From assembly GCA_905181735.1 (NCBI GenBank), contig CAJIYR010000003.1, positions 190,001 to 232,224 of the forward strand: DNA of 42,224 bases. Reading direction: 5' to 3'. The DNA comes from an uncultured Hyphomicrobiales bacterium (GTDB lineage Bacteria > Pseudomonadota > Alphaproteobacteria > Rhizobiales > TMED25). Position numbers and translations under genes: made by a program. Positions within the stretch are counted from its first letter, which is position 1, and each line of letters starts with the position of its first letter. Below, in pieces: positions 34,076 to 42,008 of the stretch. Below the pieces are notes generated by a model. That model worked only from the letters and a program-made list of their open reading frames with translations, made no database searches and was not told where the DNA came from.

Positions 34076-34152
34076 GCGCCGGTAGCTCAGTTGGATAGAG
34101 TACTTGACTACGAATCAAGGGGTCGGGGGTTCGAATCCTCCCCGGCGCACCA
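34076..34152 (+). tRNA. tRNA-Arg (anticodon ACG)
   Basis: Acceptor GCGCCGG/CCGGCGC, D stem GCTC/GAGT, anticodon stem CTTGA/TCAAG with loop CTACGAA (anticodon ACG, read as ICG after deamination), T stem GGGGG/CCTCC with loop TTCGAAT, A discriminator and encoded CCA. The 3' end faces a minus-strand integrase fragment 15 bp away, the classic arrangement of an element inserted at a tRNA end. Confidence 0.96.
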
Positions 34153-35017: not shown

Positions 35018-35458
35018 CTAGGAATCGATGCTTTCAATCAATTTAGCTAATTTCTTTTTACTCATTCCAACAACCTTACTAGCGGAAATTTCATTAATAT
35101 TGGTTGTATCTTTACCTACAATTACCAAAGCAATCATCCCCATACTTTTATGAGGCGTACACTGGTATAAATACACTCCTGGTTGATCAAATGTGTATGA
35201 ATATTCTTTGCTTGTCTTGCTTTTCTTTGGAATATCCATGCTTCCTGGGACCGTTATGAACTCTACATTATGACCCTTGGATGTTGGCGTCCATTTCACT
35301 GTATCATTAACGTCTATATTAATAATATCTTGCGAATATACCATTTTTTGACCGTCTTCGCGTTTGTTAAGCATTTCAATACTATACTCAGCTGAATGAG
35401 CATTTGGTACATTTATACTTAATAAAAATAATACACAGAAACATAATAATTTTTTCAT
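35018..35458 (-). CDS. Pseudoazurin (type I blue copper protein)
   Basis: 146 aa with a signal peptide (MKKLLCFCVLFLLSINVPNA, cleavage near HSA-E). Periplasmic electron carrier. The four copper ligands fit: H63 (SKGHNVEF), C100, H103 and M108 (YQCTPHKSMGM), with the usual 3- and 8-residue spacing after Cys. The C-terminal two-helix extension (SKKKLAKLIESID-like) is typical of pseudoazurins, which feed denitrification reductases or cytochrome oxidases. No denitrification gene is in the window. Good SD (AGAGGAAT). A 14-bp palindrome lies ~80 bp upstream. Confidence 0.92.
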   Translation of the reverse strand: MKKLLCFCVLFLLSINVPNAHSAEYSIEMLNKREDGQKMVYSQDIINIDVNDTVKWTPTSKGHNVEFITVPGSMDIPKKSKTSKEYSYTFDQPGVYLYQCTPHKSMGMIALVIVGKDTTNINEISASKVVGMSKKKLAKLIESIDS

Positions 35459-35642: not shown

Positions 35643-36086
35643 TTAATGGCAGGCTTTATTGTATACCTTCAACTTGTAGTAATTATAAGGCAACGGCGTT
35701 ATGAAACCTGCTAACAACATAATCGGAATTATCCCCAATGTCAGCATAGCTCCTCCCGTTAACAATACATCAGTTAGATTCATTGCAATCTCCATTGATA
35801 TCATAGATATAAGAGACATCTTAATCGCAACTTGGAAAGCTGACTTAAGATTCATTTGCCTACTCAATATTATTGTTTCCAGTAAAATTGAAGTCATAAG
35901 CCCATTAAAAATAGCTAACAACATAATGATAATGACTGGCGCACTTGCATTTGTGAACTGAAAATATGCTATGGTTCCAAAATCACCAATTGAGCATCCA
36001 ATTAAGCACCAAAGAGTGTTATAACTTGCTCTTTTCCAAGTATGCTTACATTGCCAATTTATCTTTAAACGAGTTAATAAATTCAT
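35643..36086 (-). CDS. DUF4396 family membrane protein ending in Cys-His
   Basis: 147 aa from ATG 36086, which shares its A with the TauE stop (TAATG), so it is translationally coupled; a GTG at 36110 is less likely. Family segment TWKRASYNTLWCLIGCSIGD (C-x3-C in the first TM helix) and C-terminal PLPYNYYKLKVYNKACH. About four hydrophobic segments. The cysteines and the Cys-His at the very end suggest metal handling; the family has no assigned role. It is the last gene of the riboswitch-controlled cbtB-cbtA-TauE-DUF4396 operon. Confidence 0.78.
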   Translation of the reverse strand: MNLLTRLKINWQCKHTWKRASYNTLWCLIGCSIGDFGTIAYFQFTNASAPVIIIMLLAIFNGLMTSILLETIILSRQMNLKSAFQVAIKMSLISMISMEIAMNLTDVLLTGGAMLTLGIIPIMLLAGFITPLPYNYYKLKVYNKACH

Positions 36087-36850
36087 TATATTCCTGTGAA
36101 CGCATTCCAAATTAGTTTAACGCCTATTGCTATAAAGAGTAATAAAAGTAATCTTTTAAATGTTTCTGCGACAATTCTTTTTCGAATTTCTCTTCCGATT
36201 CGCATGCCAATAAGAGCAGCTATTCCGCAGACAATGGCCAATGGAATTGTCTCTGTTATTAATATCCCTGTACTAATATATCCAACAGTTGCAGGGATAA
36301 CCGCAACTAAAAATAAGAATCCAGTAGTATCAACAAATTCCTCTTTATCAGCTTTTCTTAATATTAAATACATAATAATTGGGACACCCCATATAGAGGT
36401 TAGTCCTCCAATTATACCAGAAATACTTCCCATAAAAATTTGCCAATATTTATCATTCCTAATATCAAAGGACCACGATTTTCTAAATAAATTATCCAAT
36501 GCGAAAATTATTACCATACATCCAATAAGTAACTTTAATGTCTGATCACTGAGGGAAGCTGTTAAAAACGAAGTACAAGAAACACCTAAAAACATAAATA
36601 AAGCAAAAATTTTATATTTTTTAGCGATGGATCTTGGACTTTTAGCGGTAGAGAATTGTAATATATTAGCCATAATCACTGGGATAACATTCAATCCAAT
36701 TGCTTGTAATGGGGAGATAAAAGTTGTCAAAATTGCCAGAGAGGTCATAGGCAATCCAATCCCTGTAATGCCTTTAACGATTCCTGATATAATAAAGATT
36801 AATATAAACAGTGAATACAAATAGATTGGCTCAAAACCAGTACCAAACAT
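36086..36850 (-). CDS. TauE/SafE family membrane permease
   Basis: 254 aa, about eight hydrophobic segments. Family features: SGIVKGITGIGLPMTSLAIL (G-x-x-K-G-x-x-G-x-G), the matching second half GSISGIIGGLTSIWGVPIIM and the GMRIGREIRKRI loop. Most members are predicted sulfite/organosulfonate exporters or sulfur transporters, often unverified. Here the gene lies between cbtA and DUF4396 under a cobalamin riboswitch, so a cobalt- or metal-related role is a plausible inference. AAGGAAA ribosome-binding site before the ATG. Confidence 0.85.
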   Translation of the reverse strand: MFGTGFEPIYLYSLFILIFIISGIVKGITGIGLPMTSLAILTTFISPLQAIGLNVIPVIMANILQFSTAKSPRSIAKKYKIFALFMFLGVSCTSFLTASLSDQTLKLLIGCMVIIFALDNLFRKSWSFDIRNDKYWQIFMGSISGIIGGLTSIWGVPIIMYLILRKADKEEFVDTTGFLFLVAVIPATVGYISTGILITETIPLAIVCGIAALIGMRIGREIRKRIVAETFKRLLLLLFIAIGVKLIWNAFTGI

Positions 36851-36875
36851 TATTTAATTTCCTTGAATAAAATAT

Positions 36876-37577
36876 TTATACTTTTTTATAAAAATAACCC
36901 ATCACTATTGATAACATTAACCATAGAACTGCTCCAGATGCTATAGTAGAAAAAATAAACTTAAATACAAGGTCAGAAGGTAAGTTATTAACCGGGCTAA
37001 CCTTTATAAATAATATTATCACTATATGGGGAATTATTAACATAACGAAATTAATTATTCTCCATTTAATTTCTTTCTTATAAACAAACAATCCCAACCC
37101 AATAACAGAAAAAGATGCCGTTAGAAGCCAAAGAAATTGTCGTAACATTATATCTGCTTGCAAGGTTCCTGGTGGCTGAGGAGATATACTAATTGAAGGC
37201 AATAGACAAAAACTTAAAAAACCAAAAAAACCTATTAAAAGTATACGTTTATAATCCAAACTATAATTTATTAAAGTAAGGGTAGAGGCAAAGAAAAAGC
37301 TAAAACCCGTTGCTATTAGTATATTAGCAATAAATGAAAAAATAGTTCTCTCCAGATCATAGCCAAATATATGAGCACCTACTTCTTCATTGTGATGATG
37401 AACTTCTTCATTATGATGATGGTCTTCATGTATGTTTATCGTCTCTACAGAAGACAATGATTCATAAAATTCAGCTTGATCAATCATCGGTTGAATTAAC
37501 AATAGATGAAAAAAAGTAATTAAAATACCAACAATAAAGCCAGTCACAAGACTGCTTATTAATAATTTCTGTGTCAT
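36876..37577 (-). CDS. cbtA: CbtA family cobalt transporter subunit
   Basis: 233 aa with five or six hydrophobic segments. CbtA features: N-terminal VTGFIVGILITFFHLLLIQP with I-x-x-A-E, then a histidine-rich loop EDHHHNEEVHHHNEE (~51-65), ERTIFSFIANIL, and LPSISISPQPPGTL. CbtA/CbtB units were predicted from comparative genomics as cobalt transporters controlled by B12 riboswitches. The His-rich loop is a likely metal collector. It follows cbtB by 10 bp in the riboswitch operon. Confidence 0.9.
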   Translation of the reverse strand: MTQKLLISSLVTGFIVGILITFFHLLLIQPMIDQAEFYESLSSVETINIHEDHHHNEEVHHHNEEVGAHIFGYDLERTIFSFIANILIATGFSFFFASTLTLINYSLDYKRILLIGFFGFLSFCLLPSISISPQPPGTLQADIMLRQFLWLLTASFSVIGLGLFVYKKEIKWRIINFVMLIIPHIVIILFIKVSPVNNLPSDLVFKFIFSTIASGAVLWLMLSIVMGYFYKKV

Positions 37578-37587
37578 ATTTCTAGAT

Positions 37588-37773
37588 TTAATGACAAGGA
37601 AATGTTATGGAATGCCGAACATCGTGAGCTGCATTATGAATAATCTCAGAATGAGAAAAGCCAGCCCCAAAAATTAAAACCGAACCAAACAAAATACCAA
37701 TCGCTGCTGATAAGTATCTGTCTGATAAAACCAAATATTTTTGGTCTCTAGTTATGTTAATTGTACTATTCAT
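37588..37773 (-). CDS. cbtB: CbtB family cobalt transporter small subunit
   Basis: 61 aa, one hydrophobic helix (YLSAAIGILFGSVLIFGAGF). The C-terminal block SEIIHNAAHDVRHSITFPCH is diagnostic: three His residues and a terminal Cys-His act as metal ligands. First gene of the operon, with a GGAGGG ribosome-binding site 8-13 nt before the ATG and a cobalamin riboswitch immediately upstream. Confidence 0.92.
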   Translation of the reverse strand: MNSTINITRDQKYLVLSDRYLSAAIGILFGSVLIFGAGFSHSEIIHNAAHDVRHSITFPCH

Positions 37774-37808
37774 AATTTCACCCTCCGTGTGTTTATTAAC
37801 TTAATATA

Positions 37809-37944
37809 AAATCATCAGCTGGTATCTGGCTTATAGTTAAAATTAACTAATCACAGTTGCGGGGGCAGCTACGGAATTAAAACATTTCCTACCGTATTCC
37901 CATAATAAAATTGCATTATTACAATTTATAAAACCAATGAATTT
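37809..37944 (-). promoter_or_regulatory. Cobalamin (B12) riboswitch upstream of cbtB
   Basis: On the minus strand: GGGAATacGGTAGGAAAT, then TTCCGTAGCTGCCCCCGCAA, CTGTGATTAG, and AGCCAGATACCAGCTGATG, in order and spacing of the AdoCbl aptamer core. AGCTGCCCCCGCAACTGT is the highly conserved L5/P5 block and AGCCAGATACC the B12-box-like J6/3 segment. Proposed P1: AAATTCAT near 37944 with ATGATTT near 37815; P2: TGGT with ACCA. The ribosome-binding site lies only ~14 nt past the aptamer, so control at translation start is likely. B12 is expected to switch the operon off. Confidence 0.9.
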
Positions 37945-38033
37945 GTTTAAACGCTATAGATTACATTCATTAAAGTCAAATTATAACTAATCTATATTAT
38001 CTATAAATTTAAAACTAGTTACAATAACTTAAC

Positions 38034-39755
38034 TCAATCAGAATTGATTAGTTTTTTTGTTTGATGTTGACTAAGAAAAATATCTCCACTCAAATCTTTC
38101 AATAAACTAGTGCCTTCCAACTTATCCATTACTGGCCCCTTTACCTCTGAAAGATGGAATTTAATATCTCCCAACATTAGCCTTTCATTAATAATATTTA
38201 GCGATTCAAGCGCGCTCATGTCGATTGCGTTCACCGCGGAACACATAAGAATAACGTGCTTAAGATCAGGCTTTTTAGCAACTTCAGAGTAAATTCTATC
38301 TTCTAAAAAACGTGTATTTGCAAAATATAGACTTTCATCAACTCGAATAGTTAAAACTTGGGGGTTTACTAAAACGTCATGTCGCAATACATTACGATAG
38401 TGTTCGGTTCCTGGAACCTGTCCTACGATTGCAATGTGCGGACATGATGACTTGTAGATACGGGTTAGAATTGAGATTAGGACACCAGCAATTACACCAA
38501 GCTCAACCCCCATTATAAGTGTCACACTCATTGTTGCTGCGACGGCTGCAAAATCAGCCTTAGAATAAATCCATGTTTTTTTTAAAATCGAAAAATCAAC
38601 AAGCGCAAGCACAGCTACAATTATAGTTGCAGCAAGAGTTGCTTTGGGGAGGTAAAAAATTAATGTTGTTAAGAATAGCGATGCGACACCAAGGCCTATT
38701 GCGGTGAATGCTCCAGCTGCTGGTGTCTCGGCTCCAGCATCGTAGTTGACTATAGAGCGTGAAAAACCACCTGTAACTGGAAAGCCACTAGTGAATGCCG
38801 CACCAACATTAGCAACGCCAAGGCCAATGAGTTCTTGGTTAGGATCGATACGTTGCCGTTTTGTTGCCGCTAGAGTTCGAGCAATAGAGATCGATTCAAT
38901 AAATCCAATAAGTGACATTAATATTGCTGAACCAATTAGACTAGTCCAGATATCTATAGAAAACGACGGCAAAGATATGGGTGGTAGACCTTGAGGAACT
39001 TCACCAACAACTTTGACCCCTCGTTCAGTAAAACTAAAAATCCATGCAATCAACGTTGTTATAACGATAGCTATAATTGGCCCAGCCTTAGCAAAAATAT
39101 TACTGGCGCGTTGATTAATACCAAGCTTTAAAAGAAGTGGAAGAAATCCCTTGCGCACCCAGAGTAGAAAGGCTGTTGTCAGACTGCCGATCAGCAAGGT
39201 GATCCAGTTCAACTCTGTGATACTTTCTCTTAGGGATATAGTAATCTCCAATATATTATGCCCATCTGCGTTGATACCAAAGATATGTTTCATCTGGCTT
39301 GCGGCGATAATAATGCCAGAGGCCGTAATAAATCCTGTAATCACCGGGTGAGATAGAAAATTCGCTAAGAACCCTAATCGAAAAAGACCAAGTCCTAATA
39401 GAATAATTCCTGACATAAAAGCGAGGGTAATTGCAGCCGCAATGTATTCTGGCGTACCAGGAATTGCTATTTTACCAACAGCGGCGGCCGTCAAGAGCGA
39501 AACCACTGCTACTGGACCAACGGCAAGCACGCGACTGGTACCAAATATAGCATAAAGCACAATAGGAAACATTGATGCATAAAGACCCATTTCAGGGGGT
39601 AACCCTGCTAACAAGGCGTAAGCTAATGACTGAGGAATCAACATAACCGTTACAACAACAGCCGCCACAAGGTCATTAGTAAATGTGACTTGGTTATAAG
39701 TTCGTCCCCAATCAAATATAGGTAAAAATTTTGATATGCGAGACATGTTACTCAT
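38034..39755 (-). CDS. SulP family anion permease with STAS domain
   Basis: 573 aa. SulP membrane domain of about 10-14 hydrophobic segments beginning NDLVAAVVVTVMLIPQSLAY (~residues 28-47) with AGLPPEMGLYASMFPIVLYA; cytoplasmic STAS domain at ~445-565 containing VRIDESLYF and MCSAVNAIDMSALESL-type nucleotide-binding loop. Usually sulfate or bicarbonate uptake; in BigR operons the SulP permease is thought to move oxidised sulfur species out. It overlaps the DUF442 gene by 4 bp (ATGA). Codon use looks GC-richer than the core genes. Confidence 0.92.
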   Translation of the reverse strand: MSNMSRISKFLPIFDWGRTYNQVTFTNDLVAAVVVTVMLIPQSLAYALLAGLPPEMGLYASMFPIVLYAIFGTSRVLAVGPVAVVSLLTAAAVGKIAIPGTPEYIAAAITLAFMSGIILLGLGLFRLGFLANFLSHPVITGFITASGIIIAASQMKHIFGINADGHNILEITISLRESITELNWITLLIGSLTTAFLLWVRKGFLPLLLKLGINQRASNIFAKAGPIIAIVITTLIAWIFSFTERGVKVVGEVPQGLPPISLPSFSIDIWTSLIGSAILMSLIGFIESISIARTLAATKRQRIDPNQELIGLGVANVGAAFTSGFPVTGGFSRSIVNYDAGAETPAAGAFTAIGLGVASLFLTTLIFYLPKATLAATIIVAVLALVDFSILKKTWIYSKADFAAVAATMSVTLIMGVELGVIAGVLISILTRIYKSSCPHIAIVGQVPGTEHYRNVLRHDVLVNPQVLTIRVDESLYFANTRFLEDRIYSEVAKKPDLKHVILMCSAVNAIDMSALESLNIINERLMLGDIKFHLSEVKGPVMDKLEGTSLLKDLSGDIFLSQHQTKKLINSD

Positions 39756-40186
39756 ATTCTTTGTAAAAAATTAGCAGCGATTTTTGGGCCAAGTGATGCC
39801 AGATCATATCCTGCTTTTTTGGCAATATAGAGTATTTCCTCAGCCAAGAAACCCTTCTTAGCCTTATTAATTGCCCACAATGATGCTGCACGATGTCCAC
39901 TTCGACAATAGATGAAAACCGGTCCACTTTCTTTATTTGTTAATGCCTCGAATGCCTGAACGTCTTCCTCTGTGATTTTCCCTGAAACTACTGGTACCTG
40001 ATAAACCTTTACGCCTATACCGTTGCTAATTAGTTTTATATTGGCGAATGTTGGCTGACCTAGATCTTCGCCTTCTGGACGTGCAATAATAATTGCATTG
40101 AAGTTCCTGAAATTTTTTTTAGTGATATCATCTAAAGAAATTTGTGATCCAACAAAAGTTTGGGAATCAAGTTGTATTGTTTGCAT
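39752..40186 (-). CDS. DUF442/TIGR01244 family sulfurtransferase
   Basis: 144 aa. The active-site loop CRSGHR (C94-R99, six residues with catalytic Cys as in rhodanese-type enzymes) is in FIYCRSGHRAASLWA; IARPEGEDLGQPTF is the other family block. In Agrobacterium and Xylella this domain is fused to the N-terminal side of the Blh metallo-beta-lactamase protein; here it is a separate gene next to it. Likely moves sulfane sulfur to or from the persulfide dioxygenase. Overlaps SulP by 4 bp. Confidence 0.88.
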   Translation of the reverse strand: MQTIQLDSQTFVGSQISLDDITKKNFRNFNAIIIARPEGEDLGQPTFANIKLISNGIGVKVYQVPVVSGKITEEDVQAFEALTNKESGPVFIYCRSGHRAASLWAINKAKKGFLAEEILYIAKKAGYDLASLGPKIAANFLQRI

Positions 40187-40240
40187 TATAAGTCTTTCTT
40201 CGCAGATTTTTGTTATTGCTTTTACTATTAAATTAACATT

Positions 40241-41125
40241 TTAGAGCTTATTAATTGGAACTTTCAGAGCTGGTCGACCAGCTTCGTCTGTAGGAATTTC
40301 ACCAGCGCGCATGTTTACTTGAAGTGCTGGAATAATAAGTTTTGGCATAGCCAATGAGGCATCTCTTTCGGTACGTAATTTTATAAATTTTTCTTTGCTG
40401 GTACCATAACCTACATGAATGTTGTGAGCTTTCTCGTCTCCAACTGTCGTTTCCCACCTAATATCACGTCCATTGGGGCCATAATCATGACACATGAACA
40501 GGCGCAATGCATCAGGCAAGCTCAAAATTTTTTGAATTGATACAAACAAGTCCTCCGCATTTCCACCAGGAAAATCAACCCGTGCTGATCCACCGTCTGG
40601 CATAAATAATGTGTCACCAATAAATGCTGAGTTACCAATGATATGCACCATACACGCAGGCGTATGGCCAGGAGTTGCAATAACAAATGCTTCCAGAGAT
40701 CCAATTTTATAGACATCGCCATCTTCAAATAAGACATCAAATTGTGAACCATCACGCTGGAAATCTGTTCCTTCATTAAAAATTATACCCCAAGTTTCTT
40801 GAACCTCAAGGATTTTCTTGCTAATTCCAATTTTCCCTCCAAGCTTATCCTGAAGATAGGGCGCTGCAGACAGGTGATCCGCATGAACGTGGGTCTCAAT
40901 TATCCATTCAAGTGTAAGGTGATTAGATGAGATGTATTCTATAATTTCATTGGCATGGTTGTAAGTAATCTGCCCAGAAGCATAGTTGATATCCAACACA
41001 GAGTCCACGACAGAGCAAGCCTTTGTGGTTGGATCCGATACCACATAACTAATCGTGTTGGTGTTAAGATCAAAGAAAGCTTTTACATCTGGTTTAATTG
41101 ATAAATCGATGGGATTAATGCTCAT
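40241..41125 (-). CDS. blh: Persulfide dioxygenase-like MBL-fold hydrolase (Blh type)
   Basis: 294 aa. Metallo-beta-lactamase fold with the iron-site motif T78-H-V-H-A-D-H84 (ETHVHADHLSAAPYLQD), a second His in ATPGHTPACMVHI, and the characteristic MCHDYGPNGRDIRWETTVGD near the C-terminus of Blh/PDO type enzymes. Oxidises glutathione persulfide to sulfite, detoxifying H2S. Start ATG 41125 has AAAGGAG 6 nt upstream, one of the best ribosome-binding sites here. Member of the BigR operon. Confidence 0.9.
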   Translation of the reverse strand: MSINPIDLSIKPDVKAFFDLNTNTISYVVSDPTTKACSVVDSVLDINYASGQITYNHANEIIEYISSNHLTLEWIIETHVHADHLSAAPYLQDKLGGKIGISKKILEVQETWGIIFNEGTDFQRDGSQFDVLFEDGDVYKIGSLEAFVIATPGHTPACMVHIIGNSAFIGDTLFMPDGGSARVDFPGGNAEDLFVSIQKILSLPDALRLFMCHDYGPNGRDIRWETTVGDEKAHNIHVGYGTSKEKFIKLRTERDASLAMPKLIIPALQVNMRAGEIPTDEAGRPALKVPINKL

Positions 41126-41153
41126 TGAATTCTCCTTTTAAAAATCATATTGA

Positions 41154-41570
41154 TCAGTGTGAAATTAATGACGTTAATTTTGCTGCAACCATTCCAATCA
41201 ACATTGCTGGAACGAAAATAAGCGTTCCTTTAGCCACTAGAGGAAGAGATGTTAATGCTGGCCCTGGACAGAATCCTCCAAGCCCCCAACCAACACCAAA
41301 TATTGCAGCGCCTGCAAGTAAGCGAAAATCAAAATCTGTCCTTGTAGGTAGATGGAATACGTCACTAAAAAATGGCGCCTTACGTTTCTGAACTATCCAG
41401 AAACCTGGCATTGCAACCAAGATTGCTCCACCCATTACGAAAGCTAGACTTGGGTCCCAACTACCGAAGAAATCTAGAAAATTTTGAACTTTTAACGGAT
41501 TTACCATTCCTGACAATATTAAACCAGTCCCAAAAATTAATCCGGCTATAAGAGTGCTTAAGATACGCAT
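41154..41570 (-). CDS. YeeE/YedE half-transporter (DUF6691)
   Basis: 138 aa membrane protein with four hydrophobic segments. Contains GGFCPGPALTSL, the G-x-C-x-G sulfur-binding signature of the YeeE/YedE (TsuA-like) family, and starts LSTLIAGLIFGTGLILSGMV. It follows its partner by 3 bp. The pair corresponds to the two halves (PmpB and PmpA) of the thiosulfate/sulfur-compound permease in BigR operons. The direction of transport is unknown. Confidence 0.88.
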   Translation of the reverse strand: MRILSTLIAGLIFGTGLILSGMVNPLKVQNFLDFFGSWDPSLAFVMGGAILVAMPGFWIVQKRKAPFFSDVFHLPTRTDFDFRLLAGAAIFGVGWGLGGFCPGPALTSLPLVAKGTLIFVPAMLIGMVAAKLTSLISH

Positions 41571-41573
41571 CGA

Positions 41574-42008
41574 TTAACCTCCCACAACGTGTCGAAGAAC
41601 CAGAACCGTTACAAAAGCTGTTGTCATGAAAGTACCAGTAGCAACGATCGATCTTCCTGATATACGGGATATTCCACATACACCATGTCCACTTGTGCAG
41701 CCGTTACCCAACACTGATCCAAATCCAACAAATAAACCAGCAATTCCAAGAAGAATATAATTATCTGATACAACCTGAACTGGAATCTCTCCTTGAATAA
41801 GAAACCATAAAGGAGCTGAAAGAAGGAGTCCTATAATAAAGATTAAACTTTGAGGTAGTTCAATTCTATCAATAGACGGAGGTAAAATGCGTGAAATAAT
41901 ACCGCTGATACCTGCTATACAACCATGAGAAATCATGAGTATAACTGCAGAAAAACCTATAAGGGCTCCACCTACCAAAGATGTCAAAGGGGTGAATTGA
42001 GTTTCCAT
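41574..42008 (-). CDS. YeeE/YedE family half-transporter, first gene of BigR operon
   Basis: 144 aa, four hydrophobic segments. The signature GNGCTSGHGVCGISRISGRS has the conserved cysteines for sulfur-compound handling; another, ISHGCIAGISGII, is in the first helices. Works with the next gene as a pair of half-transporters. Good ribosome-binding site AGGGAA. Divergent from the bigR gene with an inverted-repeat operator between them. Confidence 0.9.
   Translation of the reverse strand: METQFTPLTSLVGGALIGFSAVILMISHGCIAGISGIISRILPPSIDRIELPQSLIFIIGLLLSAPLWFLIQGEIPVQVVSDNYILLGIAGLFVGFGSVLGNGCTSGHGVCGISRISGRSIVATGTFMTTAFVTVLVLRHVVGG

Follow-up and report, generated by a model that had tools for sequence, protein, structure and literature searches.

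Gene order at the locus

The window, that is, the whole 42,224-nt stretch of DNA analyzed here, belongs to a genome of 1.39 Mb (97.7% complete) from a family of OCS116/Rhodobiaceae-like marine Alphaproteobacteria. The members of this family have small genomes, and several of them come from the sea. The genus of the window (genomes G000 and G001) is referred to as g1 and its sister genus (G002 to G013) as g2. The locus comprises the following features:

37800–37953, minus strand: cobalamin riboswitch aptamer (RF00174; cmscan 58.6 bits, E = 3.8e-12; core alignment)
37774–37799, minus strand: expression platform/ribosome-binding region (leader comparison; CACGGAGGGTGA 5' of the cbtB ATG)
37588–37773, minus strand: cbtB, predicted cobalt transporter small subunit, C-terminus ...HDVRHSITFPCH (PF09489, 70.3 bits; TIGR02459 above cut-off)
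36876–37577, minus strand: cbtA, membrane subunit of the predicted cobalt transporter, containing a His-rich loop (PF09490, 134.5 bits; TIGR02458, 132 bits, below the cut-off of 182.9)
36086–36850, minus strand: TauE/SafE (TSUP) permease (PF01925, 110.9 bits, profile positions 2–237 of 237)
35643–36086, minus strand: DUF4396 membrane protein, short form, C-terminus -ACH (PF14342, 113.7 bits versus a cut-off of 27)
35018–35458, minus strand: pseudoazurin-like cupredoxin, 184 bp downstream of DUF4396 (PF00127, 58.5 bits; TIGR02375, 96.3 bits, below cut-off)
34076–34152: tRNA-Arg(acg) beside a cupin gene

The four genes from cbtB to DUF4396 are separated by 10, 25, and −1 bp, and TauE and DUF4396 overlap in the sequence TAATG, exactly as stated in the original prediction. 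The latter had placed the aptamer core 35 bp before cbtB, whereas the aptamer was measured to end 26 nt before the ATG. In a simple site scan, promoter-like sites in the operon region were at chance level. On the minus strand, the region has a single terminator-like site, a weak one within cbtA, and terminator-like sites were about as frequent as expected by chance (2 versus a mean of 1.1 in shuffled sequences). No convincing terminator or promoter was found between the four genes. The four genes may well share one transcript in g1. In the sister species, the same gene order is preceded by a riboswitch of 62.8 bits, and the four proteins are 92–97% identical to those of the window.

A B12 riboswitch and cbtBA form a known cassette

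The claim that a cobalamin aptamer precedes cbtB was borne out. The match to RF00174 clearly exceeds the gathering score of 31.5 bits, and the conserved core of the aptamer could be aligned. It is the single copy in the entire genome. Family genomes with CbtA likewise have one RF00174 match each, directly upstream of cbtBA, and none was detected in family genomes without CbtA. In the rest of the order, RF00174 is usually found a few hundred bases upstream of CbtA. When folded alone, the leader performed no better than its shuffles (z = 0.75), which does not count against the aptamer. The CbtB and CbtA proteins are encoded by adjacent genes and reach the cut-offs of PF09489, PF09490, and TIGR02459, while that of TIGR02458 was not reached. 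Rodionov and colleagues reportedly described B12-riboswitch-controlled cbtBA as a predicted cobalt transporter. The literature treats the transport of cobalt by CbtAB as a prediction (PMC4771312, PMC2667541).

The element CACGGAGGGTGA just 5' of the cbtB start shows no difference among the nine family genomes compared. This is consistent with control through the ribosome-binding site, the mode depicted for RS3 of Pseudomonas denitrificans. In this organism, coenzyme B12 suppresses transcription of cbtB 43-fold (PMC8123684), and the window's cbtB would, by analogy, be subject to a similar B12-dependent repression. The locus shares with the RS3-cbtBA-cobEM system of P. denitrificans (PMC8123684) the RF00174 leader directly before cbtB-cbtA, the conserved aptamer core, the G-rich ribosome-binding site before cbtB, and, very probably, a host that produces B12. 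It differs in that cbtBA is followed by TauE and DUF4396 instead of cob genes and in that its RF00174 element is the sole one in the genome. Literature searches at the level of titles and abstracts, combining TauE with the cobalamin riboswitch and OCS116 with cobalamin, returned nothing relevant.

The genomes were screened for B12 genes one gene family at a time. The window's genome carries a late cob cluster (cobP, cobW, cobN, cobO, cobQ, cobD, cobC, cobT, and cobS) as well as CbiC/CobH. It also encodes two B12 users: NrdJ, a class II ribonucleotide reductase, and MetH, whose frame of 1237 amino acids contains the B12-binding domain. Judging from these genes, the organism very probably makes B12 and needs cobalt. 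CobN was present in all CbtA-containing family genomes searched for it (8/8), and the three genomes without CobN (G005, G008, and G011) also lack CbtA. In G006, CobN is present, and CbtA is missing only because the contig ends inside TauE. Elsewhere in the order, visual inspection of protein starts and lengths often placed CobW- and CobN-like genes next to CbtA. The data support that riboswitch, cbtB, and cbtA co-occur and track B12 synthesis within the family, in agreement with the predicted B12-repressed cobalt transporter. Judged by its sequence, the riboswitch-cbtBA unit is the already known B12-repressed cobalt-uptake cassette, for which transport is predicted.

Corrinoid uptake by CbtBA was rejected as an alternative because the genome was found to encode CobN, CobS, and CbiC along with the late cob cluster.

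The distribution of B12 users varied within g2. Six genomes (G002, G003, G006, G007, G009, and G010) contain CobN and CobS and gave no match to PF02310, so that no MetH was seen. NrdJ was found in G002, G003, G006, G007, and G010, and it was not found in G009 (73% complete). G005, G008, and G011 showed the opposite pattern for CobN (absent) and MetH (present).

TauE outlives the cassette

The window's TauE resembles other members of the TauE/SafE (TSUP) family PF01925 in matching the full-length profile, and the family name would suggest transport of sulfite/sulfonate-type anions; what sets it apart is its place behind cbtBA in this family of bacteria. All nine family genomes with cbtBA, which span two genera, have TauE behind it. 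The seven g2 genomes among them share the arrangement MFS permease, riboswitch, cbtB, cbtA, TauE; in most, genes for proteins of 95 and 164 aa, tRNA-Arg, and cupin come next.

In the three g2 species G005, G008, and G011, TauE is retained in the same synteny, with 61–62% identity to the window's protein. Except for the missing cassette, their locus is intact and consists of the MFS gene, approximately 160 bp, TauE, and then, where the contig continues, the 95-aa protein. Profile searches of these genomes, which are 90% (G005), only 75% (G008), and 99% (G011) complete, revealed no CbtA, RF00174, CobN, CobS, or CbiC, and NrdJ and MetH-like proteins were present. The three species are thus apparent B12 auxotrophs. 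The TauE tree unites them in a single clade with 98/98 support that is nested in g2, and lineages carrying cbt genes stand next to this clade in both g2 and g1, so that one loss suffices. In the simplest history, riboswitch-cbtBA and B12 synthesis would have been lost together in one event, with TauE staying in place. Since TauE is kept in three species without B12 synthesis, riboswitch, and cbtBA, it is not obligately tied to cobalt uptake. This natural loss separates a B12-cobalt module (riboswitch, cbtB, and cbtA) from its neighbors.

Given the constant position of TauE behind cbtBA in nine genomes and two genera, joint expression may be of some benefit. TauE might even be a genuine, if dispensable, partner of CbtBA, transporting for instance a sulfur compound, a ligand of cobalt, or a counter-anion, with DUF4396 being a passenger. 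The conservation of TauE between the genera (62–67% identity, compared with ~27% for CbtA, which diverges much faster; window 36876–37577 and loci L084 to L090) would be in line with such a role. In the CbtA tree, which has long branches, a single clade for the family was not rejected (p-AU 0.56). Two findings speak against a partnership: TauE was retained in identical synteny after cbtBA and B12 synthesis had been lost, and a comparison of match positions in genomes of other families showed no TauE match beside a CbtA match. The closest TauE relatives found outside the family within the order are ~36% identical and occur in other contexts. We consider the partner role unlikely and favor TauE as an older resident of the locus with its own function.

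DUF4396 is a probable newcomer in g1

DUF4396 was found in 13 of 14 family genomes, including the B12 non-producers G005, G008, and G011. Its position inside the riboswitch-cbtBA-TauE operon is restricted to the two genomes of g1. In g2, DUF4396 and CbtA are on different contigs wherever both were found, and DUF4396 is flanked by uracil-DNA-glycosylase-like and dehydrogenase-like genes (judged from protein sequence, not by profile). Of the 60 DUF4396 loci examined, 20 came from relatives and 40 were spread across the class; the flanks were approximately 5 kb, some of them cut by contig ends. CbtA and CbtB were found at the locus of the sister species (L041), and none of the other 59 loci had either gene nearby. 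The CbtA and CbtB profiles each recovered 49/49 control loci, by construction, as they were built from those controls. One weak CbtA match (L208, E = 0.005) overlapped the DUF4396 frame itself.

In a tree of 45 short-form DUF4396 proteins (149 alignment columns, bootstrap unsettled), the window's copy falls inside a supported group of 22 that contains copies from other families, and outside the g2 copies. A common clade of the g1 and g2 proteins was rejected (p-AU 0.016). This grouping points to horizontal acquisition and suggests that the window's DUF4396 arrived behind TauE from another lineage. The site of the presumed insertion is variable. The tRNA-Arg(acg)-cupin pair is conserved (window, L041, L085, L087, L157, and L160), and the stretch between TauE and the tRNA differs between the genera. 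In the window, DUF4396, the pseudoazurin-like gene, and small genes occupy this stretch; the 95-aa and 164-aa genes of g2 were not found in the window. The pseudoazurin-like gene also occurs in the sister species (83% identity) and was not found in the 40 class-level DUF4396 loci.

As a separate observation, a glutamine riboswitch (RF01739, 61.8 bits) is located approximately 430 bp downstream of DUF4396 in G010 (L038, 8368–8420, plus strand).

A lead toward copper

DUF4396 is scarcely present in the literature searched. Its structure model, calculated from six sequences, had a mean pLDDT of 65 and was too poor to use; a PDB fold search with it yielded no match at E 0.001 or better. At 10 short-form DUF4396 loci, an adjacent MerR-type regulator ends in C-x7-C-P-I-(I/L), and two further loci gave partial matches. 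We take this ending to be the pattern of CueR, a Cu(I) sensor. A CueR-like profile built from three of these regulators, which match it by construction, detected no such regulator in 49 CbtA loci. A Cys-His C-terminus was present in 44 of the 49 loci found by the short-form profile, this ending being the selection rule for the 44 short forms. The CueR-type neighbors provide a testable lead toward a copper role of DUF4396.

The window's copy is a typical short form (PF14342) with a full profile match, a CxxGCxIGD-type motif, and the C-terminal Cys-His, and it groups in the tree with CueR-linked copies. Unlike these, it lies behind TauE in a B12-riboswitch operon, and no CueR gene was found beside it. 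A role in copper handling is possible for this copy.

Discussion

We assign a probability of roughly 0.78 to the following reading: the locus consists of the known riboswitch-cbtB-cbtA cassette, a TauE permease that is an older resident with its own function, and a DUF4396 protein that is a horizontal newcomer and probably handles copper. With plentiful coenzyme B12, the leader RNA would bind B12 and turn off cbtB along with the cbtA gene that follows. Under B12 shortage, CbtBA would be made and import cobalt for the CobN chelatase. As the cassette stands in front of TauE, the latter can share its transcript, but it survives without the cassette. DUF4396 would have been gained in the ancestor of g1 by insertion downstream of TauE, within the variable stretch beside the tRNA-Arg gene, and would be read through from the operon.

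In a variant of this scheme, TauE of this family would serve cobalt import as a B12-regulated accessory and, once B12 synthesis was lost, would have been retained for another substrate; in one genus, a copper-type DUF4396 gained by horizontal transfer would have come under the B12 riboswitch. Copper and cobalt handling would then be linked. We regard this variant as quite unlikely.

The original prediction had gone further and proposed a four-part metal uptake or trafficking system. It can draw on the tight spacing and overlap of the genes, on the occurrence of all four in order in two species, on TauE behind cbtBA throughout the family, and on the Cys-His C-terminus common to DUF4396 short forms and CbtB. 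In the genomes compared, however, gains and losses of the four genes do not coincide. B12 non-producers that lack cbtBA still carry TauE and DUF4396, no Cbt genes were found near DUF4396 in 59 other loci, and DUF4396 was apparently acquired from another lineage. The absence of co-occurrence in other genomes, which was named as an argument against the proposal, applies to DUF4396 outside g1; co-occurrence of TauE with cbtBA does exist and was seen in one family only. The histories of riboswitch-cbtBA, TauE, and DUF4396 do not fit a single uptake system, and joint cobalt uptake or trafficking by CbtBA, TauE, and DUF4396 under B12 repression is very unlikely. The case cautions against inferring function from tight gene spacing.

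It is very unlikely that CbtBA carries a different substrate from cobalt, for instance a corrinoid or copper, in a role shared with DUF4396 and the azurin. In favor of such a role, the cobalt specificity of CbtA is described as experimentally unconfirmed (PMC4771312), the DUF4396 family adjoins CueR-like regulators, and an azurin-like gene lies downstream in the window. However, the occurrence of CbtBA follows corrin synthesis rather than the use of corrinoids: it is lacking in the apparent auxotrophs that have NrdJ and MetH, which fits cobalt and neither corrinoid nor copper.

The operon described here, with its cassette, resident TauE, and DUF4396, adjoins a further group of genes on the minus strand (38034–42008). 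They encode a SulP permease with a STAS domain, a phosphatase/rhodanese-like protein, a protein with a metallo-beta-lactamase fold, and DUF6691 and Sulf_transp proteins, and the group looks like a sulfur-handling cluster.
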